Shown here: positions 15,736-64,000 of the stretch, one piece after another
Layout: the number at the start of each line of letters is the position of its first letter
Position numbering within the stretch: the first letter of the stretch is position 1
Origin: Pseudoips prasinana
Taxonomy: Eukaryota; Arthropoda; Insecta; Lepidoptera; Nolidae
Assembly (NCBI GenBank): GCA_951640165.1
Contig: OX621266.1
Location: 7,936,001-8,000,000 of the forward strand
Length of the DNA stretch: 64,000 bases
Reading direction: 5' to 3'
The notes under the pieces: model-generated
What the model was told of the DNA's origin: nothing
Databases searched by the model: none
Seen by the model: only the letters and a program-made list of their open reading frames with translations
Translations under genes and position numbers: made by a program

Positions 15736-15774
15736 CTACTATAAGTAACGTGACATGACCTATGTTTAGTTACA

Positions 15775-28184: not shown

Positions 28185-28388
28185 TATGCTACTTGGTATG
28201 TCAAAACTTTTTACAGGGCATTTCGTTCGTGTCTCATTTTTGAAGAGTTGGTCAATAATGCAATTTTTTATTTAATTGCATAATTTTCACCGCCCCAGGA
28301 AAACAAATAAAATGGAGATCTCTCTGCAGACAACTCTTGTATTCGTCATGATTTAACTCAAAATATAGCTCATTGTTATAGTCTAATG
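28185..28388 (-). pseudogene. Env-like linker region with frame changes
   Basis: No single frame spans this stretch. On the minus strand, short open stretches in two frames look like continuing glycoprotein sequence with conserved Cys, interrupted by stops and two shifts. It joins the two env-like frames only in the degenerate sense; the element could not make a whole protein from this copy. Confidence 0.5.
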
Positions 28389-43050: not shown

Positions 43051-43085
<35 letters not shown>

Positions 43086-43195
43086 CTACAACCGTTATTC
43101 TAAGTGCCCTGGGGCCAAAGTTAGGATTTTTTGAAAGAAAGCGTGGAGTAATTAAGCAACTGTTTCCGATAGCGTTGGAAACGCGACTGGTTAGG
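42328..43195. other. Unassigned sequence between piggyBac and the satellite
   Basis: About 870 bases with no convincing gene. Probably the right remainder of the repeat block that piggyBac entered. A run of 28 T at 43054-43081 could be the tail of a minus-strand retroposed fragment covering 43082-43195, but no coding similarity supports this. Confidence 0.4.
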
Positions 43196-45853
43196 TTTCA
43201 AGGCACAGGCATCCGATTCGGACGTTCCCAACGGTGCAAATAACGTGTATATAGACCTACCGATACACAAAACAACGCCTCACATTCTTAATAGTGGTTA
43301 AATTATTTTTAAATCAATTTTATATTAAATTTTCTTAGTTTTTTTTTCGGGCGTCGCGCCGTATTCTGCTCGTCCTGAAAAATTTTCTTCGGGAGCTTCG
43401 AACCCAACCACTTCTAAACAACAGCCCTGGTCTTTGCCTACCCGAAGACACCCATCTCGTGGGGTCAGACTCCAGGGAAAGTGGTAGGGAAGCGTCGGAA
43501 ACCGTTGCGACAGCAAAAATTGGCCCGCCCGCCACCTGAAACATAAAATATTTTCAAAATTATACATAATCAAACCGTTTACAATATATACTTACCTCTA
43601 TTATATATATACCTAAATAACTAAAACCAACTGGCGGCTTAAATATATAGGTGATACTTAAAAAAAAAAAGACATTTTCCTATACATAGTGAAATTTTTG
43701 ACCAAAAGTTCACCGTTTTTTGGCTATTTTAATTTATACTATCTACATATAATTGTTTTAATAGTGCATTTAGCAAAATCTCAACAAGACGCATCTCCTG
43801 ACACCCTGTTTGTGGTAGTATTGCGAAAGACTTTTGAGATTTTTTGCTAAAAAAGTCAATTTTCATACAAAACACCCGTAGTCTCAGGTTTTTGGGTGTT
43901 TTTAACCAAATTTTGTACGGATTCCTAAAATTTTATTTACCAACTAATTAGACCTTCTCAAGACGCGTCTACCGACACCCTATTTATATAGGTCAGCCAC
44001 ATACAACCTGTTAAATTTATCAAATTAAATCTCATAGACTCGACCGGCGTGGAGTATATATATAGGTGCTTTGCGCCCATACATTCGGCATTTTTCAAGG
44101 CACAGGCATCCGATTCGGACGTTCCCAACGGTGCAAATAACGTGTATATAGACCTACCGATACACAAAACAACGCCTCACATTCTTAATAGTGGTTAAAT
44201 TATTTTTAAATCAATTTTATATTAAATTTTCTTAGTTTTTTTCGGGTGTCGCGCCGTATTCTGCTCGTCCTGAAAAATTTTCTTCGGGAGCTTCGAACCC
44301 AACCACTTCTAAACAACAGCCCTGGTCTTTGCCTACCCGAAGACACCCATCTCGTGGGGTCAGACTCCAGGGAAAGTGGTAGGGAAGCGTCGGAAACCGT
44401 TGCGACAGCAAAAATTGGCCCGCCCGCCACCTGAAACATAAAATATTTTCAAAATTATACATAATCAAACCGTTTACAATATATACTTACCTCTATTATA
44501 TATATACCTAAATAACTAAAACCAACTGGCGGCTTAAATATATAGGTGATACTTAAAAAAGACATTTTCCTATACATAGTGAAATTTTTGACCAAAAGTT
44601 CACCGTTTTTTGGCTATTTTAATTTATACTATCTACATATAATTGTTTAATAGTGCATTTAGCAAAATCTCAACAAGACGCATCTCCTGACACCCTGTAT
44701 GTGGTAGTATTGCGAAAGACTTTTGAGATTTTTTGCTAAAAAAGTCAATTTTCATACAAAACACCCGTAGTCTCAGGTTTTTGGGTGTTTTTAACCAAAT
44801 TTTGTACGGATTCCTAAAATTTTATTTACCAACTAATTAGACCTTCTCAAGACGCGTCTACCGACACCCTATTTATATAGGTCAGCCACATACAACCTGT
44901 TAAATTTATCAAATTAAATCTCATAGACTCGACCGGCGTGGAGTATATATATAGGTGCTTTGCGCCCATACATTCGGCATTTTTCAAGGCACAGGCATCC
45001 GATTCGGACGTTCCCAACGGTGCAAATAACGTGTATATAGACCTACCGATACACAAAACAACGCCTCACATTCTTAATAGTGGTTAAATTATTTTTAAAT
45101 CAATTTTATATTAAATTTTCTTAGTTTTTTTCGGGTGTCGCGCCGTATTCTGCTCGTCCTGAAAAATTTTCTTCGGGAGCTTCGAACCCAACCACTTCTA
45201 AACAACAGCCCTGGTCTTTGCCTACCCGAAGACACCCATCTCGTGGGGTCAGACTCCAGGGAAAGTGGTAGGGAAGCGTCGGAAACCGTTGCGACAGCAA
45301 AAATTGGCCCGCCCGCCACCTGAAACATAAAATATTTTCAAAATTATACATAATCAAACCGTTTACAATATATACTTACCTCTATTATATATATACCTAA
45401 ATAACTAAAACCAACTGGCGGCTTAAATATATAGGTGATACTTAAAAAAGACATTTTCCTATACATAGTGAAATTTTTGACCAAAAGTTCACCGTTTTTT
45501 GGCTATTTTAATTTATACTATCTACATATAATTGTTTAATAGTGCATTTAGCAAAATCTCAACAAGACGCATCTCCTGACACCCTGTTTGTGGTAGTATT
45601 GCGAAAGACTTTTGAGATTTTTTGCTAAAAAAGTCAATTTTCATACAAAACACCCGTAGTCTCAGGTTTTTGGGTGTTTTTAACCAAATTTTGTACGGAT
45701 TCCTAAAATTTTATTTACCAACTAATTAGACCTTCTCAAGACGCGTCTACCGACACCCTATTTATATAGGTCAGCCACATACAACCTGTTAAATTTATCA
45801 AATTAAATCTCATAGACTCGACCGGCGTGGAGTATATATATAGGTGCTTTGCG

Positions 45854-45866
45854 CCCATACATTCGG
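45854..45866. other. Possible target-site copy left of Jockey-like element 1
   Basis: CCCATACATTCGG in the partial fourth unit. The same motif restarts the satellite after the element's poly(A) at 51813. Between this motif and the element lie 88 further satellite bases. Confidence 0.5.
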
Positions 45867-45922
45867 CATTTTTCAAGGCACAGGCATCCGATTCGGACGT
45901 TCCCAACGGTGCAAATAACGTG

Positions 45923-45928
45923 TATATA
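45923..45928 (+). promoter_or_regulatory. TATA-like box upstream of element 1
   Basis: TATATA in the satellite, 32 bp before the first base of element 1 (45955). Promoter function is inferred from spacing only. Confidence 0.3.
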
Positions 45929-45954
45929 GACCTACCGATACACAAAACAACGCC

Positions 45955-46718
45955 GAGGAGTCTCGTTTGGACAGCCGACGCGCACGGACACGTTCGTGCG
46001 CTCCTGCCTTACCCGACTATTTCCGACTATACGTGCTCGTGTACGTTCGTCAGTTGAGATAAATCGATCGTTCGATTGGTTGAATCTCGGCAAACCTTCA
46101 CACTATTAATTGGTGTAGTGGCGTCTTTTTTAAGACAGCGCTACCCCAATATAGTGTGTGTTTCTTTGTACTTTCGTGCCCCTTCAGGGAAAATCCACTT
46201 TTCTAGTGGTACTTGGTGGAAACGTAACCGTGCCAACTAAGCCAAGTTAGTGTAGCCCCAAGCACTAGGCCTTGCTCCTTCAGAGCAACGCCAGTTAATT
46301 GGAAGCGGTTTGGAATCATTGGCCTTGGGGGCTACCCTAGTCAACTCCAAATCGGAATCCCACCTCCTTACCCTACCTTTCCATTCTCTCTTGTTGTTTG
46401 GGTGCTGACGGCTTCGGCCCATATCGCCCTCTGCATTAGAGCTGCTAGGAACCCTTTCGCACAATAAGACTGGCGAGAGGGATACAAGCTTAGGGCTCAC
46501 CATAGGTACACATACCTCCTCGTCTAACCCGGCGAGGAGGGTGATACACACACCAACACACCCTCGGGCCCGTCCAACCCGAGGTGATAGTTGTTAGGGA
46601 CATCCAACTGTTAGAGCGATTGCCGAGAAGTTTCTTGTTAGTTCTTCTTCTCGGAACGCTCCGGGAGCGAACTAACGTAATTATTCGGTAGTTGTTAGGC
46701 TTTTAATACCATCACAAG
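45955..46718 (+). other. 5' UTR of Jockey-like copy 1
   Basis: About 760 bases, near-identical to 52717-53477. Contains TTCGTCAGTTGAG near 46046 and no long open frame on the plus strand. Confidence 0.65.
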
Positions 46719-48557
46719 ATGGCCGCCCCCGTACCCGCCTCCATGGTAGACATTACCAAGGACCCACGCTTCATTGAGGCTGCCTTCAAGGACCTCAAGT
46801 CTGACCCAGTTATCTGGGCAAACTTGATGGAGTCAGTGAAGACTAAGCTCATGCGAGACGACCTCCCCTGCTCCGGCGCAACAGCGCAGGAGAAACTCAG
46901 TCTCTCCGTCCCCTCCTCTTCTGCCCCGTTCACCCAGACGGACAGGCAGTCGCCACTCCCCCGTAACCGTACCCCCTCTCCATCTCAGCCTCTAGCCACA
47001 GAGGAAGAGATGGACGTCGTACCGATCGACAGCGAAGACGACGCTCACAACGAGTGGACAACCGTCAGGCGCGGGAAAGCTGATAAGCGGACCCGCGGCG
47101 ACAAGTCGTCGTCGTCTTCGTCTGGCAGCTCTTCCGGCTCTGATTCTGAGGCTTCGACTCAGGAGAAGAGCAAGAAGAGCGCCAAGACGAAGAAGTTGCG
47201 CACGGAGAGACCCTCCGCCACCAACTCTGTCCCCTCTTCCCCCACTACAAGCGCCCCCGCCTCACAGGCAAAGGCCAAACCCTCTGGCTTCACGGCCAAG
47301 ACCACTAAGCCCCCACCTATCATGCTACTCAGCATCGACAAGTGGGAAGACTTGTCCACCACGCTAAAAGCCAAAGGTGTAGTCGCACTCAGCACTACAT
47401 ACATCCTCAAGGAGCAGATGTACAAAATACAGCTGCAGACCTCCACTGAATACAGGACAACGACGGCTCTCTTCGATGCACGTAAGGTAGACTACTACAC
47501 TTACGGCACCGCTGAGGACAAAACACTCCGCGTGGTTATCCGCCGAGTGTGCCGTTACCTTCCCATCGACTCCATCAAGGAGGACCTAACCACCCAAGGG
47601 TACCCCGTGAGAGAGGTGCATCGGATGCGCCGATCAAACGGTGGCGAGCCCTTCGATATGGTGCTGGTCCACCTTGACGACTCGAAGGAAGGACAGAAAA
47701 TCCTGACTGTCCTTAAAACAGTTTGCGGCGTCGGCGGCATCGTCGTCGAGCCGCCGCGGCGAGGGACCGTACAGGGGCAGTGCCACAACTGCCAACTGTA
47801 CGGGCACTCGTCTAAGAACTGCCACGTCGCCCCGAGGTGTGTTAAATGCCTGACCCCAGGTCATCACACCTCCGAATGCCCAAGACCTAAGGATCGTAGC
47901 GAATGCTCCGAGCCACCCGGTTGTGTCAACTGCCAGTCCTTGGGACACCCTGCGAACTATCGCGGCTGTCCCAAGGCACCGGCGAGGAGACCCGCCAGGA
48001 GGCCTCGCAGCAAGCGCAACGCTCGCAAGCCTCAGGCGCAGACTAGCTCCGCCAAGCCCCAAGCAAGCCCTCCCCCGCTAATGTCCTTGGATGTCCAACA
48101 GACATCCCTGCGACCAGCAAGACCACACTGGCCTCTGCCAGATTACGTCCCCTCGACCGCACCCAAGGCTGCGGGTGAGGCGGTCGCCCCTAAGGCTGTG
48201 CCAGTCCCAGCTAAAGAGGCGTCCCCCAAACCCTCAACCAGCGCGACCCCTCCCGCCCCAGTCAAATCGGGCTGGGCTTACAACCCGCTGACCAGGAAGT
48301 CACAGGCTCCAAAGGCCCCGGCCAAAGGAGCCCAGACTCCAAAGTCATCAGCCCCAGCGCCCAAAACCCGGGCGCCCCAAGCGAATAGCAAAGGGCGCGC
48401 CTCAGGCTTTGCCGAGCGCATCATGACTCAGGGCTGGGAGTTGCTCGATCAGTTTGAGGACCTCACCCAGAGGGCCGAAGCTGATCCGACCAACATCCAG
48501 TTGGCCATCGACGCGGCACACTTATACCGCCGCTTTATTAAATCAATTCAACCGTAA
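46719..48557 (+). CDS. ORF1 (Gag-like zinc-knuckle protein), Jockey-like copy 1
   Basis: 612 residues, intact. RNA-binding partner of ORF2 in the retrotransposition particle. The N terminus carries a Ser-rich acidic stretch (about 129-145) and a Lys-rich segment (about 150-162). Residues about 270-345 look like the domain that precedes C2HC knuckles in Jockey-type Gag (PRE_C2HC), including VVIRRVCRYLP. Three knuckles follow at about 355-417: CHNCQLYGHSSKNC, CVKCLTPGHHTSEC and CVNCQSLGHPANYRGC. A Pro/Ala/Lys-rich C-terminal half follows. The ATG has a good context (AAGATGGCC). The stop TAA shares its last A with the ORF2 ATG. Confidence 0.85.
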   Translation: MAAPVPASMVDITKDPRFIEAAFKDLKSDPVIWANLMESVKTKLMRDDLPCSGATAQEKLSLSVPSSSAPFTQTDRQSPLPRNRTPSPSQPLATEEEMDVVPIDSEDDAHNEWTTVRRGKADKRTRGDKSSSSSSGSSSGSDSEASTQEKSKKSAKTKKLRTERPSATNSVPSSPTTSAPASQAKAKPSGFTAKTTKPPPIMLLSIDKWEDLSTTLKAKGVVALSTTYILKEQMYKIQLQTSTEYRTTTALFDARKVDYYTYGTAEDKTLRVVIRRVCRYLPIDSIKEDLTTQGYPVREVHRMRRSNGGEPFDMVLVHLDDSKEGQKILTVLKTVCGVGGIVVEPPRRGTVQGQCHNCQLYGHSSKNCHVAPRCVKCLTPGHHTSECPRPKDRSECSEPPGCVNCQSLGHPANYRGCPKAPARRPARRPRSKRNARKPQAQTSSAKPQASPPPLMSLDVQQTSLRPARPHWPLPDYVPSTAPKAAGEAVAPKAVPVPAKEASPKPSTSATPPAPVKSGWAYNPLTRKSQAPKAPAKGAQTPKSSAPAPKTRAPQANSKGRASGFAERIMTQGWELLDQFEDLTQRAEADPTNIQLAIDAAHLYRRFIKSIQP

Positions 48558-51497
48558 TGGCTGTACACCCGTTGATGACTCCCCAATTCACTTGCAGGCT
48601 AAAACCCAGATCTTTAAAGATCGGGTTTTACAATGCAGACGGATTAGCGAGACAACGCGATGAAGTCGCAGAATTCCTCTGCGATCACCAAATTGATCTC
48701 TTCCTCGTTCAAGAGACTTTCCTCAAACCGAGCAAACGGAGAAGTCCTACAGTTGCCAACTATCGTATAGTTCGCAACGATAGGACTCACTCCGCCAAAG
48801 GGGGCACGCTGATTTACTTTAAGAAATCACTGCATTGCGTACCTTTGGACCCTCCCGTGCTGAAGAACATTGAGGTCTCTGTCTGTCGAATAGGCATGAC
48901 AGGCCATCAGCCAATCACGATAGTCTCGGCCTACCTCCCCCCAGACAAGGAGATACTACTTAGCGATCTCCAAGCACTGTATGACTTAGATGGCTCTGTC
49001 ATAGTGGCAGGCGATCTAAACTCCAAGCATGAGCAATGGAGCTGCCGTACGAGCAACTCGAACGGCCGCGCACTTGCTAATCACTTGGCAATCATACCGT
49101 TCGACCCTATAGTCCCTCTCGAACCGACCCACTTCCCCAGAATTGACAGTCACCGACCCGACATACTCGACATAGCGCTCCTTAAGAATACAAACCTACG
49201 TTTGGCTTCTGTAGAAGTGCTACACGAGTTAGACTCCGACCATAGACCGGTCATCCTTAGTCTTGCCTCCCGCACAAGCCACTCTGGCGCGGATAGCAAC
49301 CTCCCACCCAGATATGTTACCGACTGGCAGAAACTTGAGGGTAAACTCAAGTCAGCCACATCGGAGCACTTAGATTCGATCCCATCCCTCATAGAGACCC
49401 CCGAGCAAACGCATGCAGCCATCGGCTCTTTCACGACTCACATCCAAATCCAAATGAACGAATGTTCCCGGGAGGTCCCAGCGGCTGACGCGTTCAGACG
49501 GTGGAAGCTCCCGGAGGATTTGCGTGAGTTAGTGACTGAGAAGAACGCGGCCATCAGAGCCTTCGACTCCTATAACACCTTGGAAAACCGCACTCGAATG
49601 CGTGAACTACAGCGTACTGTACGTGAACGCATGACCGAGAGGCGGGATTCCGGGTGGGATAGGACGTTAGCCGAGATTCAACCCTCGCGGAAGGCCTTTT
49701 GGAATCTCTGCAAGCGACTCAAGACAGACACCGACTGGACCATCCCCCCGCTGACGCGTCCGAATCAACGCCCCGCGTTCGATGACGACGAAAAAGCCGA
49801 ATGCATGGCCGACAATCTAGAGACCCAATGTTCTCCCAGTAGACCCGGAGCACCTCAACGAGGTCGACTCTGAGGTAGAACGTAGGCTCGCCATACCACT
49901 CCCTCCGACCCCAACTGCCCCCTCCCGGGAGGATGCAGACGTCGACGACGACGATCCTCTGAGGCCAGTGACCATCGAAGAGGTTAAAACTCTGATCAGG
50001 GACCTCCGCCCTCGCAAAGCCCCCGGGTATGACGGACTCACCAATCGCGTTTTCAAGCAACTCCCATTGCTTTTACTTAGCCTGATGGTCGCGATTTTCA
50101 ACGCGGCCTTTTACAACAACATCTTTCCACACCAGTGGAAACAGGCAAACGTGATTGGCATCCCGAAACCCGGAAAACCCAAATCCGATCCGGCGAATTA
50201 CCGCCCCATTAGCCTCCTCTGCGCCATGGGGAAACTCTACGAGCGCATCATTCACGCCCGTTTGTCGTCTTACATCCGCGCAAACGATATCCTCCCTGAC
50301 GAGCAGTTTGGCTTTCGAGCCAGACACTCCAGCGTTCACCAGGTGCATCGCATTGTCGAACACATCCTAGTGAAAGCTGCCCGTCAAAGAGCCCACACAG
50401 GAGCACTCTTCTTCGACGTGGCCAAAGCGTTCGATAAGGTCTGGCACAACGGCTTATTATATAAGCTGTTCGAACTCAAAGTGCCCGACCGTCTCGTGCA
50501 CATCTTACGAGACTTCCTTACGGACCGAACGTTTAGCTACCGCGTCGAGGGAAATTACTCCTCCCTCAGACCGATACGCGCAGGAGTTCCCCAAGGCTCA
50601 GTCCTTGCCCCGCTCCTGTTCTCGCTGTACACCAGCGACATCCCCAGACCCAATAAGGCTCATCTAGCCCTCTTCGCTGACGACACAGCTCTCTACTACT
50701 CCAGTAGGAGCACGTCAGTCATCCACCGAGAACTCCAATCCTCAGCCGACGCCCTCGGCGAATGGTTCAGGAAATGGAGGATCGAAGTAAATCCCACCAA
50801 GAGCGCAGCCGTGCTCTTCTCTAGGATAGACCCCGCCCCCACCGCCGATCCCGTCCGAATGTTTGGTGAACCGATCCCCTGGGAGAAGAAAACCAAATAT
50901 TTGGGAGTGATCCTCGATCGGAAGTTAAACTTCAAGGACCATCTGAGATACGCTCGTAACCGTGCCTCATTTGCCCTTTATCGATTACACAGCCTCCTGA
51001 ATGCACGCAGTAAAATGTCCCTTGAAAACAAGGTGAGAATTTACAAGACGTGCATTCGACCCATGATGACCTATGCGAGCCCGGTCTTCGCGCACGCTAA
51101 GGATCGATTCATCCACCTCCTCCAGGTAGTCCAGAACAAGTTTATGCGACGAGCCGCGGGCGCACCGTGGTTCGTCCGTAACAAAAGCCTCCATGCTGAT
51201 CTCCAATTGCCTACCATCAGGCAATGGATGAAGCAAGCGTCCAAAAGGTACTTTGACTCTGCCACTCACCATCCAAGTAAATTGGTGGTACAGGCGGTCA
51301 AATACACTCCTTCCCGACTCTCACGTAAACACCGTCGTCCGAAGAACGTCATAGACGAATCGGACGACGAGATCACCGTTTACTTAAACCAAATCAAATC
51401 GATTAGAGACTCTCGCAACACTGCTCAACCGATATTTCGTACTCGCCGGATGCGAGTACGACCGCGAACGCGTCGCGACCACCAGCGTCCTCCATGA
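48557..51497 (+). pseudogene. ORF2 (endonuclease and RT) with 11-bp deletion, Jockey-like copy 1
   Basis: Starts at the TAATG junction. Endonuclease motifs are FYNADGL, QETFL, GDLNSKHEQW and DSDHRPV; RT motifs are DVAKAFDKVWH, GVPQGSVLAPLLFS and FADDTA. Compared with copy 2 (56599-56609), eleven bases are missing after 49839, between two CCAG repeats. The frame therefore shifts and stops at 49873, while the RT part stays open in another frame to 51497. The lesion suggests microhomology-mediated loss. Confidence 0.85.
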
Positions 51498-51812
51498 CCC
51501 TTAGTTTGCATATCGTACCGATAAAAAGCCCCCCTCAACGCGGAAGGGGGGCCGCGTCATGTCATTAACGTAGAGCGAAAGTTGCACTAAACTCCCTAAA
51601 AACCATGATCTCTCGCCCTCTCCCCGTCAGTATCCGCCCAGAGCCGAGGTTCGAGCCCCACAGGGGGCGCCCTCCGGCGCGGGTACTTAGTTTGTAGTTT
51701 TATATTTGCTAGGCCGGTTAGAGCCCACGCTCACCCCTACTGTCCGGTGAAGCAGTAAAAGCCGAGAGGCTAACTGCACGCGTCACGTTAAAAAAAAAAA
51801 AAAAAAAAAAAA
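51498..51812 (+). other. 3' UTR and poly(A) of Jockey-like copy 1
   Basis: Contains a CCCCCCTCAACGCGG...GGGGGG hairpin near 51530-51555. A tRNA B-box-like GGTTCGAGCCCC lies near 51647, followed by 23 A. Nearly identical to the other two copies. Confidence 0.7.
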
Positions 51813-52681
51813 CCCATACATTCGGCATTTTTCAAGGCACAGGCATCCGATTCGGACGTTCCCAACGGTGCAAATAACGTGTATATAGACCTACCGATAC
51901 ACAAAACAACGCCTCACATTCTTAATAGTGGTTAAATTATTTTTAAATCAATTTTATATTAAATTTTCTTAGTTTTTTTCGGGTGTCGCGCCGTATTCTG
52001 CTCGTCCTGAAAAATTTTCTTCGGGAGCTTCGAACCCAACCACTTCTAAACAACAGCCCTGGTCTTTGCCTACCCGAAGACACCCATCTCGTGGGGTCAG
52101 ACTCCAGGGAAAGTGGTAGGGAAGCGTCGGAAACCGTTGCGACAGCAAAAATTGGCCCGCCCGCCACCTGAAACATAAAATATTTTCAAAATTATACATA
52201 ATCAAACCGTTTACAATATACACTTACCTCTATTATATATATACCTAAATAACTAAAACCAACTGGCGGCTTAAATATATAGGTGATACTTAAAAAAAGA
52301 CATTTTCCTATACATAGTGAAATTTTTGACCAAAAGTTCACCGTTTTTTGGCTATTTTAATTTATACTATCTACATATAATTGTTTAATAGTGCATTTAG
52401 CAAAATCTCAACAAGACGCATCTCCTGACACCCTGTTTGTGGTAGTATTGCGAAAGACTTTTGAGATTTTTTGCTAAAAAAGTCAATTTTCATACAAAAC
52501 ACCCGTAGTCTCAGGTTTTTGGGTGTTTTTAACCAAATTTTGTACGGATTCCTAAAATTTTATTTACCAACTAATTAGACCTTCTCAAGACGCGTCTACC
52601 GACACCCTATTTATATAGGTCAGCCACATACAACCTGTTAAATTTATCAAATTAAATCTCATAGACTCGACCGGCGTGGAG

Positions 52682-52691
52682 TATATATATA
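52682..52691 (+). promoter_or_regulatory. TATA-like box upstream of the insertion site, copy 2
   Basis: TATATATATA begins 35 bp before the first base of Jockey-like copy 2. The same box lies 34 bp before copy 3 (59452) and before element D (62593). Function inferred from spacing. Confidence 0.4.
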
Positions 52692-52702
52692 GGTGCTTTG
52701 CG

Positions 52703-52716
52703 CCCATACATTCGGC
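52703..52716. other. Target-site duplication of Jockey-like copy 2, left
   Basis: CCCATACATTCGGC directly before the element; repeated at 58583-58596 after its poly(A). Confidence 0.8.
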
Positions 52717-53477: not shown

Positions 53478-55316
53478 ATGGCCGCCCCCGTACCCGCCTC
53501 CATGGTAGACATTACCAAGGACCCACGCTTCATTGAGGCTGCCTTCAAGGTCCTCAAGTCTGACCCAGTTATCTGGGCAAACTTGATGGAGTCAGTGAAG
53601 ACTAAGCTCATGCGAGACGACCTCCCCTGCTCCGGCGCAACAGCGCAGGAGAAACTCAGTCTCTCCGTCCCCTCCTCTTCTGCCCCGTTCACCCAGACGG
53701 ACAGGCAGTCGCCACTCCCCCGTAACCGTACCCCCTCTCCATCTCAGCCTCTAGCCACAGAGGAAGAGATGGACGTCGTACCGATCGACAGCGAAGACGA
53801 CGCTCACAACGAGTGGACAACCGTCAGGCGCGGGAAAGCTGATAAGCGGACCCGCGGCGACAAGTCGTCGTCGTCTTCGTCTGGCAGCTCTTCCGGCTCT
53901 GATTCTGAGGCTTCGACTCAGGAGAAGAGCAAGAAAAGCGCCAAGACGAAGAAGTTGCGCACGGAGAGACCCTCCGCCACCAACTCTGTCCCCTCTTCCC
54001 CCACTACAAGCGCCCCCGCCTCACAGGCAAAGGCCAAACCCTCTGGCTTCACGGCCAAGACCACTAAGCCCCCACCTATCATGCTACTCAGCATCGATAA
54101 GTGGGAAGACTTGTCCACCTCGCTAAAAGCCAAAGGTGTAGTCGCACTCAGCACTACATACATCCTCAAGGAGCAGATGTACAAAATACAGCTGCAGACC
54201 TCCACTGAATACAGGACAACGACGGCTCTCTTCGATGCACGTAAGGTAGACTACTACACTTACGGCACCGCTGAGGACAAAACACTCCGCGTGGTTATCC
54301 GCCGAGTGTGCCGTTACCTTCCCATCGACTCCATCAAGGAGGACCTAACCACCCAAGGGTACCCCGTGAGAGAGGTGCATCGGATGCGCCGATCAAACGG
54401 TGGCGAGCCCTTCGATATGGTGCTGGTCCACCTTGACGACTCGAAGGTAGGACAGAAAATCCTGACTGTCCTTAAAACAGTTTGCGGCGTCGGCGGCATC
54501 GTCGTCGAGCCGCCGCGGCGAGGGACCGTACAGGGGCAGTGCCACAACTGCCAACTGTACGGGCACTCGTCTAAGAACTGCCACGTCGCCCCGAGGTGTG
54601 TTAAATGCCTGACCCCAGGTCATCACACCTCCGAATGCCCAAGACCTAAGGATCGTAGCGAATGCTCCGAGCCACCCGGTTGTGTCAACTGCCAGTCCTT
54701 GGGACACCCTGCGAACTATCGCGGCTGTCCCAAGGCACCGGCGAGGAGACCCGCCAGGAGGCCTCGCAGCAAGCGCAACGCTCGCAAGCCCCAGGCGCAG
54801 ACTAGCTCCGCCAAGCCCCAAGCAAGCCCTCCCCCGCTAATGTCCTTGGATGTCCAAAAGACATCCCTGCGACCAGCGAGACCACACTGGCCTCTGCCAG
54901 ACTACGTCCCCTCGACCGCACCCAAGGCTGCGGGTGAGGCGGTCGCCCCTAAGGCTGTGCCAGTCCCAGCTAAAGAGGCGTCCCCCAAACCCTCAACCAG
55001 CGCGTCCCCTCCCGCCCCAGTCCAATCGGGCTGGGCTTACAACCCGCTGACCAAGAAGTCACAGGCTCCAAAGGCCCCGGCCAAAGGAGCCCAGACTCCA
55101 AAGTCATCAGCCCCAGCGCCCAAAACCCGGGCGCCCCAAGCGAATAGCAAAGGGCGCGCCTCAGGCTTTGCCGAGCGCATCATGACTCAGGGCTGGGAGT
55201 TGCTCGATCAGTTCGAGGACCTCACCCAGAGGGCCGAAGCTGATCCGACCAACATCCAGTTGGCCGTCGACGCGGCACACGTATACCGCCGCTTTATTAA
55301 ATCAATACAACCGTAA
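53478..55316 (+). CDS. ORF1 (Gag-like zinc-knuckle protein), Jockey-like copy 2
   Basis: 612 residues, same architecture as copy 1: Ser/acidic N terminus, PRE_C2HC-like segment at about 270-345, three CCHC-type knuckles at about 355-417, Pro/Ala-rich C-terminal half. It differs from copy 1 at about a dozen residues (for example D25V, E324V). It ends TAA at 55314-55316, overlapping the ORF2 ATG by one base. Confidence 0.88.
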   Translation: MAAPVPASMVDITKDPRFIEAAFKVLKSDPVIWANLMESVKTKLMRDDLPCSGATAQEKLSLSVPSSSAPFTQTDRQSPLPRNRTPSPSQPLATEEEMDVVPIDSEDDAHNEWTTVRRGKADKRTRGDKSSSSSSGSSSGSDSEASTQEKSKKSAKTKKLRTERPSATNSVPSSPTTSAPASQAKAKPSGFTAKTTKPPPIMLLSIDKWEDLSTSLKAKGVVALSTTYILKEQMYKIQLQTSTEYRTTTALFDARKVDYYTYGTAEDKTLRVVIRRVCRYLPIDSIKEDLTTQGYPVREVHRMRRSNGGEPFDMVLVHLDDSKVGQKILTVLKTVCGVGGIVVEPPRRGTVQGQCHNCQLYGHSSKNCHVAPRCVKCLTPGHHTSECPRPKDRSECSEPPGCVNCQSLGHPANYRGCPKAPARRPARRPRSKRNARKPQAQTSSAKPQASPPPLMSLDVQKTSLRPARPHWPLPDYVPSTAPKAAGEAVAPKAVPVPAKEASPKPSTSASPPAPVQSGWAYNPLTKKSQAPKAPAKGAQTPKSSAPAPKTRAPQANSKGRASGFAERIMTQGWELLDQFEDLTQRAEADPTNIQLAVDAAHVYRRFIKSIQP

Positions 55317-58267
55317 TGGCTGTACACCCGTTGATGACTCCCCAATTCACTTGCAGGCTAAAACCCAGATCTTTAAAGATCGGGTTTTACAATGCAGACG
55401 GATTAGCGAGACAACGCGATGAAGTCGCAGAATTCCTCTGCGACCATCAAATTGATCTCTTCCTCGTTCAAGAGACATTCCTCAAACCGAGCAAACGGAG
55501 AAGTCCTACAGTTGCCAACTATCGTATAGTTCGCAACGATAGGACTCACTCCGCCAAAGGGGGCACGCTGATTTACTTTAAGAAATCACTGCATTGCGTA
55601 CCTTTGGACCCTCCCGTGCTGAAGAACATTGAGGTCTCTGTCTGTCGAATAGGCATGACAGGCCATCAGCCAATCACGATAGTCTCGGCCTACCTCCCCC
55701 CAGACAAGGAGATACTACTTAGCGATCTCCAAGCACTGTATGACTTAGATGGCTCTGTCATAGTGGCAGGCGATCTAAACTCCAAGCATGAGCAATGGAG
55801 CTGCCGTACGAGCAACTCGAACGGCCGCGCACTTGCTAATCACTTGGCAATCATACCGTTCGACCCTATAGTCCCTCTCGAACCGACCCACTTCCCCAGA
55901 ATTGACAGTCACCGACCCGACATACTCGACATAGCACTCCTTAAGAATACAAACCTACGTTTGGCTTCTGTAGAAGTGCTACACGAGTTAGACTCCGACC
56001 ATAGACCGGTCATCCTTAGTCTTGCCTCCCGCACAAGCCACTCTGGCGCGGATAGCAACCTCCCACCCAGATATGTTACCGACTGGCAGAAACTTGAGGG
56101 TAAACTCAAGTCAGCCACATCGGAGCACTTAGATTCGATCCCATCCCTCATAGAGACCCCCGAGCAAACGCATGCAGCCATCGGCTCTTTCACGACTCAC
56201 ATCCAAATCCAAATGAACGAATGTTCCCGGGAGGTCCCAGCGGCTGACGCGTTCAGACGGTGGAAGCTCCCGGAGGATTTGCGTGAGTTAGTGACTGAGA
56301 AGAACGCGGCCATCAGAGCCTTCGACTCCTATAACACCTTGGAAAACCGCACTCGAATGCGTGAACTACAGCGTACTGTACGTGAACGCATGACCGAGAG
56401 GCGGGATTCCGGGTGGGATAGGACGTTAGCCGAGATTCAACCCTCGCGGAAGGCCTTTTGGAATCTCTGCAAGCGACTCAAGACAGACACCGACTGGACC
56501 ATCCCCCCGCTGACGCGTCCGAATCAACGCCCCGCGTTCGATGACGACGAAAAAGCCGAATGCATGGCCGACAATCTAGAGACCCAATGTTCTCCCAGCA
56601 CCCTACCAGTAGACCCGGAGCACCTCAACGAGGTCGACTCTGAGGTAGAACGTAGGCTCGCCATACCACTCCCTCCGACCCCAACTGCCCCCTCCCGGGA
56701 GGATGCAGACGTCGACGACGACGATCCCCTGAGGCCAGTGACCATCGAAGAGGTTAAAACTCTGATCAGGGACCTCCGCCCTCGCAAAGCCCCCGGGTAT
56801 GACGGAATCACCAATCGCGTTTTCAAGCAACTCCCGTTGCTTTTACTTAGCCTGATGGTCGCGATTTTCAACGCGGCCTTTTCCAACAACATCTTTCCAC
56901 ACCAGTGGAAACAGGCAAACGTGATTGGCATCCCGAAACCCGGAAAACCCAAATCCGATCCGGCGAATTACCGCCCTATTAGCCTCCTCTGCGCCATGGG
57001 GAAACTCTACGAGCGCATCATTCACGCCCGTTTGTCGTCTTACATCCGCGCAAACGATATCCTCCCTGACGAGCAGTTTGGCTTTCGAGCCAGACACTCC
57101 AGCGTTCACCAGGTGCATCGCATTGTCGAACACATCCTAGTGAAAGCTGCCCGTCAAAGAGCCCACACAGGAGCACTCTTCTTCGACGTGGCCAAAGCGT
57201 TCGATAAGGTCTGGCACAACGGCTTATTATATAAGCTGTTCGAACTCAAAGTGCCCGACCGTCTCGTGCACATCTTACGAGACTTCCTTACGGACCGAAC
57301 GTTTAGCTACCGCGTCGAGGGAAATTACTCCTCCCTCAGACCGATACGCGCAGGAGTTCCCCAAGGCTCAGTCCTTGCCCCGCTCCTGTTCTCGCTGTAC
57401 ACCAGCGACATCCCCAGACCCAATAAGGCTCATCTAGCCCTCTTCGCTGACGACACAGCTCTCTACTACTCTAGTAGGAGCACGTCAGTCATCCACCGAG
57501 AACTCCAATCCTCAGCCGACGCCCTCGGCGAATGGTTCAGGAAATGGAGGATCGAAGTCAATCCCACCAAGAGCGCAGCCGTGCTCTTCTCTAGGATAGA
57601 CCCCGCCCCCACCGCCGATCCCGTCCGAATGTTTGGTGAACCGATCCCTTGGGAGAAGAAAACCAAATATTTGGGAGTGATCCTCGATCGGAAGTTAAAC
57701 TTCAAGGACCATCTGAGATACGCTCGTAACCGTGCCTCATTTGCCCTTTATCGATTACACAGCCTCCTGAATGTACGCAGTAAAATGTCCCTTGAAAACA
57801 AGGTGAGAATTTACAAGACGTGCATTCGACCCATGATGACCTATGCGAGCCCGGTCTTCGCGCACGCTAAGGATCGATTCATCCACCTCCTCCAGGTAGT
57901 CCAGAACAAGTTTATGCGACGAGCCGCGGGCGCACCGTGGTTCGTCCGTAACAAAAGCCTCCATGCTGATCTCCAATTGCCTACCATCAGGCAATGGATG
58001 AAGCAAGCGTCCAAAAGGTACTTTGACTCTGCCACTCACCATCCAAGTAAATTGGTGGTACAGGCGGTCAAATACACTCCTTCCCGACTCTCACGTAAAC
58101 ACCGTCGTCCGAAGAACGTCATAGACGAATCGGACGACGAGATCACCGTTTACTTAAACCAAATCAATTCGATTAGAGACTCTCGCAACACTGCACAACC
58201 GATATTTCGTACTCGCCGGATGCGAGTACGACCGCGAACGCGTCGCGACCACCAGCGTCCTCCATGA
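55316..58267 (+). CDS. ORF2 (endonuclease and reverse transcriptase), intact, Jockey-like copy 2
   Basis: 983 residues. The AP-type endonuclease spans about 20-235 with N26 (FYNADG), E53 (QETF), D153 and N155 (GDLNS) and the D228/H229 pair (SDHRP). This nuclease nicks the target. The RT spans about 480-760: a KAPGYDG entry motif, DEQFGFRARHS, DVAKAFDKVWH, GVPQGSVLAPLL, the catalytic FADD at 710-713 and KYLGVILD. A C-terminal thumb-like part (KTCIRPMMTYA) and a basic tail follow. There is no RNase H domain and no C-terminal CCHC finger like that of the SART-like ORF2. Start by the TAATG stop-start overlap. Confidence 0.9.
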   Translation: MAVHPLMTPQFTCRLKPRSLKIGFYNADGLARQRDEVAEFLCDHQIDLFLVQETFLKPSKRRSPTVANYRIVRNDRTHSAKGGTLIYFKKSLHCVPLDPPVLKNIEVSVCRIGMTGHQPITIVSAYLPPDKEILLSDLQALYDLDGSVIVAGDLNSKHEQWSCRTSNSNGRALANHLAIIPFDPIVPLEPTHFPRIDSHRPDILDIALLKNTNLRLASVEVLHELDSDHRPVILSLASRTSHSGADSNLPPRYVTDWQKLEGKLKSATSEHLDSIPSLIETPEQTHAAIGSFTTHIQIQMNECSREVPAADAFRRWKLPEDLRELVTEKNAAIRAFDSYNTLENRTRMRELQRTVRERMTERRDSGWDRTLAEIQPSRKAFWNLCKRLKTDTDWTIPPLTRPNQRPAFDDDEKAECMADNLETQCSPSTLPVDPEHLNEVDSEVERRLAIPLPPTPTAPSREDADVDDDDPLRPVTIEEVKTLIRDLRPRKAPGYDGITNRVFKQLPLLLLSLMVAIFNAAFSNNIFPHQWKQANVIGIPKPGKPKSDPANYRPISLLCAMGKLYERIIHARLSSYIRANDILPDEQFGFRARHSSVHQVHRIVEHILVKAARQRAHTGALFFDVAKAFDKVWHNGLLYKLFELKVPDRLVHILRDFLTDRTFSYRVEGNYSSLRPIRAGVPQGSVLAPLLFSLYTSDIPRPNKAHLALFADDTALYYSSRSTSVIHRELQSSADALGEWFRKWRIEVNPTKSAAVLFSRIDPAPTADPVRMFGEPIPWEKKTKYLGVILDRKLNFKDHLRYARNRASFALYRLHSLLNVRSKMSLENKVRIYKTCIRPMMTYASPVFAHAKDRFIHLLQVVQNKFMRRAAGAPWFVRNKSLHADLQLPTIRQWMKQASKRYFDSATHHPSKLVVQAVKYTPSRLSRKHRRPKNVIDESDDEITVYLNQINSIRDSRNTAQPIFRTRRMRVRPRTRRDHQRPP

Positions 58268-58582
58268 CCCTTAGTTTGCATATCGTACCGATAAAAAGCC
58301 CCCCTCAACGCGGAAGGGGGGCCGCGTCATGTCATTAACGTAGAGCGAAAGTTGCACTAAACTCCCTAAAAACCATGATCTCTCGCCCTCTCCCCGTCAG
58401 TATCCGCCCAGAGCCGAGGTTCGAGCCCCACAGGGGGTGCCCTCCGGCGCGGGTACTTAGTTTGTAGTTTTATATTTGCTAGGCCGGTTAGAGCCCACGC
58501 TCACCCCTACTGTCCGGTGAAGCAGTAAAAGCCGAGAGGCTAACTGCACGCGTCACGTTAAAAAAAAAAAAAAAAAAAAAAA
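58268..58582 (+). other. 3' UTR and poly(A) of Jockey-like copy 2
   Basis: Same GC-rich hairpin and B-box-like motif as in copy 1; 23 A at 58560-58582. Confidence 0.7.
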
Positions 58583-59485
58583 CCCATACATTCGGCATTT
58601 TTCAAGGCACAGGCATCCGATTCGGACGTTCCCAACGGTGCAAATAACGTGTATATAGACCTACCGATACACAAAACAACGCCTCACATTCTTAATAGTG
58701 GTTAAATTATTTTTAAATCAATTTTATATTAAATTTTCTTAGTTTTTTTCGGGTGTCGCGCCGTATTCTGCTCGTCCTGAAAAATTTTCTTCGGGAGCTT
58801 CGAACCCAACCACTTCTAAACAACAGCCCTGGTCTTTGCCTACCCGAAGACACCCATCTCGTGGGGTCAGACTCCAGGGAAAGTGGTAGGGAAGCGTCGG
58901 AAACCGTTGCGACAGCAAAAATTGGCCCGCCCGCCACCTGAAACATAAAATATTTTCAAAATTATACATAATCAAACCGTTTACAATATACACTTACCTC
59001 TATTATATATATACCTAAATAACTAAAACCAACTGGCGGCTTAAATATATAGGTGATACTTAAAAAAAGACATTTTCCTATACATAGTGAAATTTTTGAC
59101 CAAAAGTTCACCGTTTTTTGGCTATTTTAATTTATACTATCTACATATAATTGTTTAATAGTGCATTTAGCAAAATCTCAACAAGACGCATCTCCTGACA
59201 CCCTGTTTGTGGTAGTATTGCGAAAGACTTTTGAGATTTTTTGCTAAAAAAGTCAATTTTCATACAAAACACCCGTAGTCTCAGGTTTTTGGGTGTTTTT
59301 AACCAAATTTTGTACGGATTCCTAAAATTTTATTTACCAACTAATTAGACCTTCTCAAGACGCGTCTACCGACACCCTATTTATATAGGTCAGCCACATA
59401 CAACCTGTTAAATTTATCAAATTAAATCTCATAGACTCGACCGGCGTGGAGTATATATATAGGTGCTTTGCGCCCATACATTCGG
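58583..59485 (+). repeat. Satellite unit between Jockey-like copies 2 and 3
   Basis: 890-bp unit from CCCATACATTCGGC (58583) to 59472, then CCCATACATTCGG (59473-59485), where copy 3 enters. Confidence 0.9.
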
Positions 59486-59489
59486 GATT

Positions 59490-60515
59490 AAACTCAAAGT
59501 GCCTGACCGTCTCGTGCACATCCTACGAGACTTCCTTACGGACCGAACGTTTCGCTACCGCGTCGAGGGAAATTACTCCTCCCTCAGACCGATACGCGCA
59601 GGAGTTCCCCAAGGCTCAGTCCTTGCCCCGCTCCTGTTCTCGCTGTACACCAGCGACATCCCCAGACCCAAGAAGGCTCATCTAGCCCTCTTCGCTGACG
59701 ACACGGCTCTCTACTACTCCAGTAGGGACCCGTCAGCCATTCACCGAGAACTCCAATCCTCAGCCGATGCCCTCGGCAAATGGTTCAGGAAATGGAGGAT
59801 CGAAGTAAACCCGACCAAGAGCGCAGCCGTGCTCTTCTCTAGGGTACACCCCAAGCCCACCACAGATCCCGTCCGAATGTTTGGTAAACCGATCCCCTGG
59901 GAGAGGAAAACCAAATACTTGGGAGTGATCCTCGATCAGAAGTTAAACTTCAAGGACCATCTGAGATACGCTCGCAACCGTGCCTCATTTGCCCTTTATC
60001 GATTACACAGCCTCCTGAATGCACGCAGTAAAATGTCCCTTGTAAACAAGGTGAGAATTTACAAGACGTGCATTCGACCCATGATGACCTATGCGAGCCC
60101 GGTCTTCGCGCACGCTAAGGAACATCTCATCCACCTCCTACAGGTAGTCCAGAACAAGTTTATGCGACGAGCCGTGGGCGCACCATGGTTCGTCCGTAAC
60201 AAAAGCCTCCATGCCGATCTCCAATTGCCTACCATCAGGCAATGGATGAAGCAAACGTCCAAAAGGTATTTTGACTCTGCCACTCACCATCCAAGTAAAT
60301 TGGTGGTACAGGCGGTCAATTACACCCCCCTCCGACTCACAATTAAGCACCGTCGTCCGAAGCACGTCCTAGACGAACCGGACGACGAGACCACCGTTTA
60401 CCTTGAGCACATCAAATCGATTAGAGACTCTCGCAACACTGCACAACCGATATTTCGTACTCGCCGGATGCGAGTACGACCGCGAACGCGCCGCGACCAC
60501 CAGCGTCCTCCATGA
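59490..60515 (+). pseudogene. ORF2 C-terminal half (RT), Jockey-like copy 3
   Basis: About 341 codons. RT GVPQGSVLAPLL and FADDTA boxes are present, then the thumb-like and basic C-terminal parts; stop at 60515. The frame is open from the satellite junction. No endonuclease or early RT blocks, so it is non-functional. Confidence 0.85.
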
Positions 60516-60803
60516 CCCTTAGTTTGCATATCGTACCGATAAAAAGCCCCCCTCAACGCGGACGGGGGGCTGCGTCATGTCATTAACGTAGAGCGAAAGT
60601 TGCACTAAACTCCCCAAAAACCATGATCTCTCGCCCTCTCCCCGCCAGTATCCGCCCAGAGCCGAGGTTCGAGCCCCACAGGGGGCGCCCTCCGGCGCGG
60701 GTACTTAGTTTGTAGTTTTTATTTGCTAGGCCGGTTAGAGCCCACGCTCACCCCTACTGTCCGGTGAAGCAGTAAAAGCCGAGAGGCTAACTGCACGCGT
60801 CAC

Positions 60804-60834
<31 letters not shown>
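60516..60834 (+). other. 3' UTR and poly(A) of Jockey-like copy 3
   Basis: Matches the 3' UTR of copies 1 and 2 with a few substitutions and a small deletion near 60719. Confidence 0.7.
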
Positions 60835-60836
<2 letters not shown>

Positions 60837-62626
60837 ATACATTCGGCATTTTTCAAGGCACAGGCATCCGATTCGGACGTTCCCAACGGTGCAAATAACG
60901 TGTATATAGACCTACCGATACACAAAACAACGCCTCACATTCTTAATAGTGGTTAAATTATTTTTAAATCAATTTTATATTAAATTTTCTTAGTTTTTTT
61001 CGGGTGTCGCGCCGTATTCTGCTCGTCCTGAAAAATTTTCTTCGGGAGCTTCGAACCCAACTACTTCTAAACAACAGCCCTGGTCTTTGCCTACCCGAAG
61101 ACACCCATCTCGTGGGGTCAGACTCCAGGGAAAGTGGTAGGGAAGCGTCGGAAACCGTTGCGACAGCAAAAATTGGCCCGCCCGCCACCTGAAACATAAA
61201 ATATTTTCAAAATTATACATAATCAAACCGTTTACAATATATACTTACCTCTATTATATATATACCTAAATAACTAAAACCAACTGGCGGCTTAAATATA
61301 TAGGTGATACTTAAAAAAAGACATTTTCCTATACATAGTGAAATTTTTGACCAAAAGTTCACCGTTTTTTGGCTATTTTAATTTATACTATCTACATATA
61401 ATTGTTTAATAGTGCATTTAGCAAAATCTCAACAAGACGCATCTCCTGACACCCTGTTTGTGGTAGTATTGCGAAAGACTTTTGAGATTTTTTGCTAAAA
61501 AAGTCAATTTTCATACAAAACACCCGTAGTCTCAGGTTTTTGGGTGTTTTTAACCAAATTTTGTACGGATTCCTAAAATTTTATTTACCAACTAATTAGA
61601 CCTTCTCAAGACGCGTCTACCGACACCCTATTTATATAGGTCAGCCACATACAACCTGTTAAATTTATCAAATTAAATCTCATAGACTCGACCGGCGTGG
61701 AGTATATATATAGGTGCTTTGCGCCCATACATTCGGCATTTTTCAAGGCACAGGCATCCGATTCGGACGTTCCCAACGGTGCAAATAACGTGTATATAGA
61801 CCTACCGATACACAAAACAACGCCTCACATTCTTAATAGTGGTTAAATTATTTTTAAATCAATTTTATATTAAATTTTCTTAGTTTTTTTCGGGTGTCGC
61901 GCCGTATTCTGCTCGTCCTGAAAAATTTTCTTCGGGAGCTTCGAACCCAACCACTTCTAAACAACAGCCCTGGTCTTTGCCTACCCGAAGACACCCATCT
62001 CGTGGGGTCAGACTCCAGGGAAAGTGGTAGGGAAGCGTCGGAAACCGTTGCGACAGCAAAAATTGGCCCGCCCGCCACCTGAAACATAAAATATTTTCAA
62101 AATTATACATAATCAAACCGTTTACAATATACACTTACCTCTATTATATATATACCTAAATAACTAAAACCAACTGGCGGCTTAAATATATAGGTGATAC
62201 TTAAAAAAAGACATTTTCCTATACATAGTGAAATTTTTGACCAAAAGTTCACCGTTTTTTGGCTATTTTAATTTATACTATCTACATATAATTGTTTAAT
62301 AGTGCATTTAGCAAAATCTCAACAAGACGCATCTCCTGACACCCTGTTTGTGGTAGTATTGCGAAAGACTTTTGAGATTTTTTGCTAAAAAAGTCAATTT
62401 TCATACAAAACACCCGTAGTCTCAGGTTTTTGGGTGTTTTTAACCAAATTTTGTACGGATTCCTAAAATTTTATATACCAACTAATTAGACCTTCTCAAG
62501 ACGCGTCTACCGACACCCTATTTATATAGGTCAGCCACATACAACCTGTTAAATTTATCAAATTAAATCTCATAGACTCGACCGGCGTGGAGTATATATA
62601 TAGGTGCTTTGCGCCCATACATTCGG
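60835..62626 (+). repeat. Satellite array, last block (two units)
   Basis: Units 60835-61723 and 61724-62613, then CCCATACATTCGG (62614-62626), where element D begins. Near-identical to the earlier units. Confidence 0.9.
62593..62602 (+). promoter_or_regulatory. TATA-like box upstream of element D
   Basis: TATATATATA, 34 bp before the first base of element D, at the same spacing as for copies 2 and 3. Confidence 0.4.
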
Positions 62627-62835
62627 GGACAGTCGGTAGCTCCATGCGCACGCGCACATCTCGCAACCGGAAGCTCGCCAACCGCAAGAGATCTCGCTCG
62701 GGCCCACCACCTCGCGCTTTGCGCGACCCTGCACCCCGACCTCTGGGTCGTAGGGCCGCGAGGGAAGCTACTCCCCATGAAGATTCCTGCTGAAGAAAAC
62801 TTTTTCTCCAACTACCCTCAAGATCTCTTCATATC
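62627..62835 (+). other. 5' UTR of family D
   Basis: GC-rich leader starting GGACAGTCGGTAGC. Two upstream ATGs (62642 and 62777) open only short frames. Confidence 0.5.
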
Positions 62836-64000
62836 ATGAAGAAAAACGGGAACTCGCCAGGCCCCGCACAGGGTCGGACGAGCGACGCCAACACCTCCAG
62901 AGAACCCAGAGCGACGGCGAAGCCTGGGCCCTCACCGCCGGGAACCGGAACGCGCACGTTCGTCCGTTCCCCACCGCGCGACCCGCGTATCCCCCCTTCC
63001 GCGAGAGGGTGGAAACCGTCCGCGCCCGTAACCGCTCCCCAGCCGCCTGGGTCGAGTGCCACCACGCGCGCGCCTCCTCTGGTTAGCCCAGAGTCGAGTG
63101 CCGCCCGATCTTCGTCGCGCGCGCCTCCTCTGGTCCGACCGGAGTCGAGTGCCGCCCGTACCGCGCCTACCCGGGAAGCGATAACCATTGCCCCCCGCGA
63201 CACCGCCACCTCACGCAGTAAGGGAAGAAGCGGCACCGTCCGCCATCAACCTGCACCGACGCCGCCCACGCCCCGAGCGTCAGCTACTCGCGCCGTTGTA
63301 CCGTTAGGCACGCACGCGTCAGCAGCCCGACCATTCGTGGCCACCCAGCCGCCGCCTATCCGCCCGCGCGTCCCAGAACAGACGCCAACGGACAAGGCCA
63401 AAACCCAAGATACCCTCCAAAAGGGAAAGAAAAACATAGACGTACCCTCGAGGACGCCTACCCCCGTGGATCGGCGCCCGATCGACACCGCACGCGGCAT
63501 CGACGTCGCCGATTTCTACGAAACCACAGACATCCAGGAGGGGGGGGAAGAACATCGCTTCACCCCCTCAGCCCTCCCACCGATGGATTCCCGTCCGTCT
63601 ACCCCCCTCAACACTCCGTACTCCGACAGGATATCGGCCTCCGCCGAATCCCTGCCGGACTCGCAGCTGTGTGGGCTGGAAGAGGACTACCCAGACTCCG
63701 ACTCTGAGTTCGACGAAGCAGAGGCGCTAGCCGAGGCATTCGCCGAAATAATTGAGATGGAGCTAGACCCCCCCACAGGCGGGGACAAGAGAGAACGAAG
63801 CTCAGAGGATGAGGACGACCCTGCCAAACGGCCGCGAGTTGCCCCACCCCCACCGACACCCTCAACCTCCTATGCTGCGGCCGCAGCAAGGAAGCCAACC
63901 CAACCCGACAGGGAACCAGTTCACGTCACCGATAAGGACAAGAACAAAAAGCCAAAGGCCCAGCTACCCACCGCTGGACAAAAAACCAAGAAGGTAAAGT
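62836..64000 (+). CDS. ORF1-like protein of family D, partial (open at window end)
   Basis: 388 codons without a stop from ATG 62836 to the window end. The N-terminal half is rich in Pro, Arg, Ser and Thr and holds a near-perfect 17-residue repeat (period 51 bp near 63071 and 63122). A strongly acidic stretch (near 63675-63775, many D and E) and a basic AKRPRV segment like a nuclear localisation signal follow. Next come a Pro/Ser run, an Ala run and a Lys-rich end. Such disordered N termini precede PRE_C2HC and zinc-knuckle domains in Jockey-type ORF1, which would lie beyond 64000. No knuckle is visible here, so the product is inferred. Confidence 0.6.
   Translation, partial: MKKNGNSPGPAQGRTSDANTSREPRATAKPGPSPPGTGTRTFVRSPPRDPRIPPSARGWKPSAPVTAPQPPGSSATTRAPPLVSPESSAARSSSRAPPLVRPESSAARTAPTREAITIAPRDTATSRSKGRSGTVRHQPAPTPPTPRASATRAVVPLGTHASAARPFVATQPPPIRPRVPEQTPTDKAKTQDTLQKGKKNIDVPSRTPTPVDRRPIDTARGIDVADFYETTDIQEGGEEHRFTPSALPPMDSRPSTPLNTPYSDRISASAESLPDSQLCGLEEDYPDSDSEFDEAEALAEAFAEIIEMELDPPTGGDKRERSSEDEDDPAKRPRVAPPPPTPSTSYAAAAARKPTQPDREPVHVTDKDKNKKPKAQLPTAGQKTKKVK

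Follow-up and report, generated by a model that had tools for sequence, protein, structure and literature searches.

A Jockey-clade LINE family that probably inserts at a fixed distance from TATA boxes, in a moth satellite and elsewhere

The window analyzed here is a 64,000-nucleotide stretch of the Pseudoips prasinana genome (GenBank assembly GCA_951640165.1, contig OX621266.1, positions 7,936,001 to 8,000,000, or C32:7936001-8000000 in the C and L handles that we use for contigs and loci of this 1.126 Gb, 56-contig assembly). Its right third is an array of an 889/890-bp satellite, interrupted by three copies of a Jockey-like long interspersed nuclear element (LINE; copies 1 to 3, family A) and by a further element, D. 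The flanks of these and other copies in the genome indicate, with a probability that we put at roughly 85%, that this Jockey-clade family and related families that use the satellite site integrate in sense orientation into the TATA-box core promoters of RNA polymerase II (Pol II). The satellite is most readily understood as TATA promoters arranged in tandem, one instance of a promoter-targeting rule, and the site preference within it is best explained by its TATA box, not by the satellite sequence.

TATA boxes at insertion sites across the genome

A search with the Jockey 3' end gave 40 scored matches from 2470 first-look candidates, and 27 of the 40 were examined; the other 13 were the window copy, five copies in the C6 array, one copy on the satellite piece of C2 (L025) and six copies on C30. 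None of the 27 flanks has satellite at the junction. The first nick was taken to be the 3' junction, and distances to TATA were counted from its first T. For 14 of the 27 copies (11 of 20 plus 3 of 7) a 5' junction was located where expected, and 13 of these 14 non-satellite copies have a TATA-like box 19–22 nucleotides (nt) upstream of the nick. The distance is 21 nt in nine copies, 22 nt in three and 19 nt in one, and it is 21 nt in the satellite; for one tandem copy (L111) the nick position was assigned manually, using L084, whose 3' flank belongs to the same promoter. When each promoter is counted once and the satellite is included, 12 of 13 have the box, against a mean of 0.14 and a maximum of 3 in 2000 dinucleotide shuffles, and only 2 TATA-like starts were found at 936 other upstream positions. 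Among the 13 copies for which no 5' end was found, 7 share an identical or nearly identical 3' flank with the TATA promoter of another copy. The possibility that the element carries the TATA with it (5' transduction) was rejected, since the nick is the same in truncated copies and where the duplication is two-sided, and these 7 copies share promoter 3' flanks; the TATA is thus not supplied by the element's own 5' end.

A further 20 5' ends outside the arrays were taken in list order, skipping one that had already been read, and 16 of them have a TATA-like box 30–42 nt ahead of the element (15 match the pattern set in advance, and one, L147, matches TATATTA, which was added afterwards); mononucleotide shuffling predicts 0.77, with a maximum of 4. 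Two of the 20 (L149 and L150) have one flank in common, and they look like an inverted duplication of a single insertion, in opposite orientation, on C3. Exact 5' ends number 184 genome-wide. Distinct 5' ends were counted in the range covered by both searches, C1 to C15:17.95 Mb, with a control window 40 nt further upstream: 60 of 72 ends have a TATA at gap 24–46, compared with 15 of 72 at gap 64–86 (Fisher 1e-14). By position, 58 of these 72 full-length 5' ends lie outside two satellite arrays (C6 and C14). The preliminary description of the window, which had proposed the satellite as a site-specific target, held that the proposal would fall if most other copies stood at unrelated sequences; most of those listed do, but their sites are not random: TATA stands at the expected distance in 49 of the 58, compared with 15 of 58 for the control window (Fisher 1e-10). 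With the box 19–22 nt above the nick in 13 of 14 copies, the insertions stand at a fixed distance and in a fixed orientation relative to a promoter element, as expected of a promoter-guided LINE with a TRE5-A-like mode of action.

The target promoters are of several kinds. In one flank the sequence encodes the beginning of histone H2A (M SGRGKGGKVKGKA), and in another that of H2B (MPPKTSG). At C30:8.5-9.8 Mb, coding pieces that we take to be those of H2A, H2B and H4 have been hit repeatedly by family A and by a second family, E. Family E lends the rule further support, with 31 distinct 5' ends (41 rows) that have TATA at gap 24–46, of which 21 lie in this C30 region. Two repeated flanks contain AATAAA and look, from their sequence, like long terminal repeat (LTR) promoters, and downstream of the site shared by L106 and L134 lies a short open frame, which terminates in a GT resembling a splice donor. 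Target-site duplications are 6–20 bp long, mostly 10–13 bp, apart from 101 bp in copy 1; the 6-bp value (L103) is shortened by a mismatch. Several sites have an initiator-like TCA or TTAGT 11–13 nt past the nick, so that the duplication ends near the predicted start of transcription, a placement that histone H2A and H2B fit less well. In the 13 sequences the base eight nt upstream of the nick is always C or G, and the nick sequence itself is little conserved.

The insertion point in the satellite arrays

The satellite units, the LINE copies and D all lie on the + strand of the window. The satellite units are 98.9–100% identical to a single unit (blastn), and the array begins with a partial unit at unit position 18 (units at 43196..45853), followed by complete units at 44076-44964 and 44965-45853. 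Its left edge, 43196, is near the insertion point of the unit and adjoins GGTTAGG. A 13-mer, CCCATACATTCGG, occurs nine times exactly and twice with one mismatch in the window (0.04 expected with up to one mismatch), and copy 2, copy 3 and D all begin directly past it, as unit alignment bears out for this observation of the preliminary description. The unit's TATA tract TATATATATA (45833..45842) has its first T 21 nt before the insertion point, and TATA-like distances to that point are 21, 19 and 17 nt. Copy 1 starts at unit position 102, and its target-site duplication is therefore 101 bp, a unit piece (45854..45954) that is repeated after the element. Copy 2 is preceded by a unit (51813..52702) and its left duplication, CCCATACATTCGG (52703..52715; first TATA base 52682); copy 3 by a unit identical to that one (58583..59472) and its left duplication (59473..59485); and D by two units (60835..62613) and its left duplication (62614..62626; first TATA base 62593). 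Past the poly(A), the satellite restarts with CCCATAC after copies 1 and 2 and with CCATAC after copy 3, that is, at unit position 1 or 2, again as first described. The full-length and truncated Jockey-like LINEs and D thus have one common, base-precise insertion point on the same strand; three random insertions in an 889-bp unit would have 3' junctions within one base on the same strand with P ~3e-6. A search of window positions 43000-46700 against Rfam gave nothing but a sub-threshold PreQ1 match, and a tRNA scan of the window found zero tRNA genes.

Across the genome there are 108 forward and 37 reverse occurrences of the 13-mer (controls 2 and 2), mostly inside arrays. The unit length, from spacing among 100 places listed, is 857 to 893 bp depending on the contig, and about 1996 bp on C12. 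We read 40 of the 13-mer sites, mostly picked beside gaps so that the rates are biased: the Jockey family follows directly in 16 and other elements in 3 (L035, L049, L052), satellite lies on both sides in 17, L063 is a 3' junction, and at the remaining 3 both satellite and element are absent. The site is occupied on C2, C6, C14, C18, C23 and C32, with varying truncations and extra bases (L025, L029, L031, L077 and L078 among them). Truncated copies begin past the same 13-mer in copy 3, L025, L029, L047, L055 and L069, and after a slightly shorter piece of it in L077 and L078; for four of them (copy 3, L025, L077 and L078) the reading covered the 3' junction as well. At 13-mer sites without satellite (L026, L070, L071, L073) no queried element was found in the stretch read. 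Samples of 12 contig left ends, of three small contigs and of L001 contained nothing over 100 bp that matched the satellite, the Jockey family or D. In four loci (L090, L091, L095, L035) a second element lies behind the 3' end of a first after a short target piece, as in tandem insertion.

Copy 1 (45955..51812) is full length, with an 11-nt gap in its second open reading frame (ORF2) relative to copy 2, and ends in poly(A); its ORF1 (46719-48554) matches Pfam PRE_C2HC (PF07530, 54 bits), and CCHC knuckles are visible in it. Copy 2 (52716..58582), also full length with poly(A), has both frames open: ORF1 of 612 aa (53478..55316) and ORF2 of 983 aa (55316..58267), which encodes an APE-type endonuclease (PF03372/PF14529) and a reverse transcriptase (PF00078). 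Copy 3 (59486..60834) is 5' truncated and 95% identical to copy 2. The only ORF2 matches at E <= 0.001 in Pfam are Exo_endo_phos, Exo_endo_phos_2 and RVT_1, with no RNase H. In a quick tree made without curated references, the reverse transcriptase groups with proteins automatically named jockey or transposon BS and with lepidopteran relatives, apart from the R1-like rows and hence outside an R1/TRAS clade. The named ORF2 matches are from Mythimna, Euphydryas and Choristoneura (51–56% identity), the top ones reach 59% and are mostly metagenomic, and a structure model of ORF2 has a mean pLDDT of 78. Copies 1–3 and 19 of 20 sampled genomic copies end in poly(A), which like the ORF1 knuckles and the set of ORF2 domains is a trait of the Jockey clade; L091 has only four A before a tandem copy. 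Among viral contigs a 20-base target pattern had 0 matches and related loci numbered 0, and the related loci in prokaryote genomes were 8 distant LINE fragments.

An alignment of copies 1 and 2 has 35 substitutions and 11 gap positions over 5866 columns, while the units that follow them are identical. In ORF2, 12 of their 15 substitutions are at codon position 3 (p = 0.0003), in ORF1 7 of 16 (p = 0.26), and between copies 3 and 2 the count is 30 of 64 (p = 0.017). Because of this divergence and third-position bias, copies 1 and 2 look like products of separate active source lineages, and not of a single duplicated insertion.

The site is also used by other families; at least three of Jockey type share the satellite insertion point. 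D (62627..64000, continuing to L033:1594) has an ORF1 of 790 aa from 62836, no ORF2 and no poly(A), and when completed beyond the window end is about 2.97 kb long with ORF1 only. A homologue search with the in-window part of its ORF1 found none, and within a small local set D ORF1 is a distant homologue of Jockey ORF1 (27% over 235 columns, E 8e-19), so D is not the unrelated element that it was first taken for. Family E (L074, L075) has two frames and is 74–80% identical in nucleotides to the first family where aligned. L076, at the same satellite site on C18, has frames related to D ORF1 (71% over 137 aa) and to a Mythimna endonuclease region (53% over 377 columns).

The remainder of the window holds other repeats. 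Positions 1-26700 contain TRAS/R1-like elements on the + strand, and similar elements are found at several contig ends; three of their poly(A) tails are followed by GGTT and one by GGTTAGGTTAGGTTAGG (8612), as in telomere-repeat LINEs. TTAGG repeats, TRAS-like elements and the named ORF2 matches all agree with a probable lepidopteran source. A 4560-bp repeat (11215-15774 and 18379-22938) is 100% identical between copies 7164 bp apart. On the - strand, 27477-34946 has large ORFs, resembling a BEL/Pao-type element, between identical 227-bp stretches, and 40400-42121 holds a 573-aa ORF that resembles a piggyBac-type transposase.

Proposed mechanism and alternatives

How might a LINE come to stand 21 nt from a TATA box? 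The site may be found by way of the promoter-bound pre-initiation complex, through TBP/TFIIB or the polymerase open complex. Promoter melting starts about 20 bp downstream of TATA, and the first nick would fall where it begins; the second strand would be cleaved near the predicted start site, so that the duplication would roughly match the transcription bubble. A new full-length copy would then have its first base near the start site of the captured host promoter, and the original gene would retain its start region with its TATA box displaced about 6 kb upstream. In its most complete form, which we regard as evenly balanced between right and wrong, the proposal is that this Jockey branch integrates into the open Pol II pre-initiation complex, the template strand being nicked at the upstream edge of the bubble and the other strand cut near +1; that each full-length copy would have a host TATA promoter from the outset, with transcription beginning at the first base of the copy; that the autonomous families A and E and the gag-only D share this target; and that histone promoters and the TATA satellite serve as reservoirs.

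Several observations weigh against promoter targeting itself. Five sampled copies (L130, L140, L142, L146, L152) have no TATA-like box at the rule distance, and 12 of the 72 listed 5' ends fail the TATA test, at least two of which look tandem (C6:234309, 64 bp past a 3' end, and C8:36348839, 5.9 kb after C8:36342943). Six sampled copies were not judgeable (L080, L094, L095, L121, L123, L125). The TATA-like pattern, with CATAAAA and TATTTAA included, was chosen after the first 11 flanks, and TATATTA after L147; control windows are not empty (0 to 4 of 20, values of 2, 3 and 4 among them, and 15 of 72). The start sites are predicted ones; in H2A a TCAGT follows the nick by about 20 nt, and H2B has a 20-bp duplication. 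Because the target copies are partly non-independent (repeated LTR-like flanks, histone repeats and inverted pairs), the p values are optimistic. The figure of 31 for family E is a bare count, with neither a total nor a control to set it against. Lastly, the basis is the sequence of one genome.

What else could position the insertions? The endonuclease might itself read TATA, or TATA with a nearby pattern, in naked DNA and nick at a fixed offset without the transcription machinery. The near base precision of the TATA–nick offset and the restriction to C or G eight nt upstream of the nick favor such reading, and APE-type endonucleases can have long recognition sequences, as in TRAS1 and R1. Against it, an offset of 21 nt is probably long for a single endonuclease domain and the nick sequence itself is little conserved, and we consider it unlikely, if far from negligible. 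It is very improbable that the satellite sequence CCCATACATTCGG is the specific target in the way that 28S rDNA is for R1. Base-precise, repeated insertion in arrays on several contigs fits that idea, but the majority of the listed full-length copies are found at unrelated sequences beyond the arrays, where those read keep the same TATA spacing, and the four 13-mer sites without satellite carry no queried element in the stretch read. The TATA spacing at unrelated flanks largely refutes it. What stands of the original proposal is thus one precise site that more than one family has used repeatedly and independently; that the satellite sequence is what they recognize is not supported.

Could one occupied unit instead have spread by unequal exchange, gene conversion or segmental duplication? 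Neighboring units differ hardly at all, the L149/L150 pair shares one flank, and on C23 L055 and L056 form an inverted-duplication-like pair, one insertion in opposite orientations; duplication may well have raised copy number within the arrays and the histone region. As the whole explanation it is highly unlikely. Truncation points and extra nucleotides differ at one site, and copies 1 and 2 show the codon-position bias given above; because there are many 5' ends, several families and several contigs, duplication alone is insufficient, which agrees with the preliminary description, and the distinct 5' junctions rule out pure duplication. Finally, the elements might favor open chromatin only loosely, with copies at promoters surviving more often, and histone genes and LTR promoters are probably active in the germ line; a spacing of 19–22 nt in one orientation is far too precise for such a preference, and we give this reading almost no credence.

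Should insertion into Pol II promoters be correct, a LINE would be acting with near single-base precision inside Pol II TATA promoters, a new mode of targeting. It would explain how the element can be transcribed from its first base without a promoter of its own and would provide a mechanism for recurrent insertion into histone promoters and for LINE-filled satellites; hundreds of insertions would record, as a natural footprint, the use of TATA promoters by the germ line; and the pre-initiation complex would be connected, in a way that can be tested, with target-primed reverse transcription.

Relation to known targeted elements

To our knowledge, the targeted LINEs described so far read either DNA sequence (R1, R2, TRAS) or Pol III factors (TRE5-A), and in the titles and abstract openings that we searched, where subscription papers and preprints are barely covered, no LINE targeted to Pol II TATA promoters appeared. 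The elements described here are like R1, TRAS and SART in having an APE endonuclease and a single nick point within a repeated target. The duplication made by R1 is 14 bp long, and known site-specific LINEs of the R1 clade recognize 28S rDNA or TTAGG repeats; our family is in a different branch of the quick tree from the window's own R1-like elements. HeT-A, TART and TAHRE of Drosophila are targeted elements of the Jockey clade, and HeT-A, which is gag-only, resembles D; they are found at telomere ends and are not known to show promoter spacing.

The nearest prior case of Jockey LINEs in satellites, in the literature searched, is Tribolium freemani, in which Jockey-like LINEs regularly interrupt 5S rDNA/TfSat satellite arrays, the arrays serving as 5S spacers (PMC11202950); the targets there are 5S arrays, and the Results section gives no rule for Jockey junctions. 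A survey of target motifs in Drosophila omitted non-LTR elements (PMC3276498). Ty3 is reported to integrate precisely at Pol III-transcribed genes (PMC8632968); it differs in being an integrase-based LTR element and in its use of Pol III. The best mechanistic precedent is TRE5-A of Dictyostelium, a non-LTR element guided to promoters, which inserts about 47 bp upstream of tRNA genes in an orientation-specific way with extra 5' nucleotides; an in vitro interaction of its ORF1 protein with TBP is reported (PMC5391098). A position ahead of tRNA genes, as in TRE5-A itself, is not what we see here, since the readable flanks are histone genes and other TATA promoters (the flanks were not scanned for tRNA genes). 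The targets of TRE5-A are Pol III genes (tRNA and 5S), entered just upstream of the TFIIIB region, whereas the insertions in P. prasinana appear to be in Pol II promoters, between the TATA box and the predicted start.

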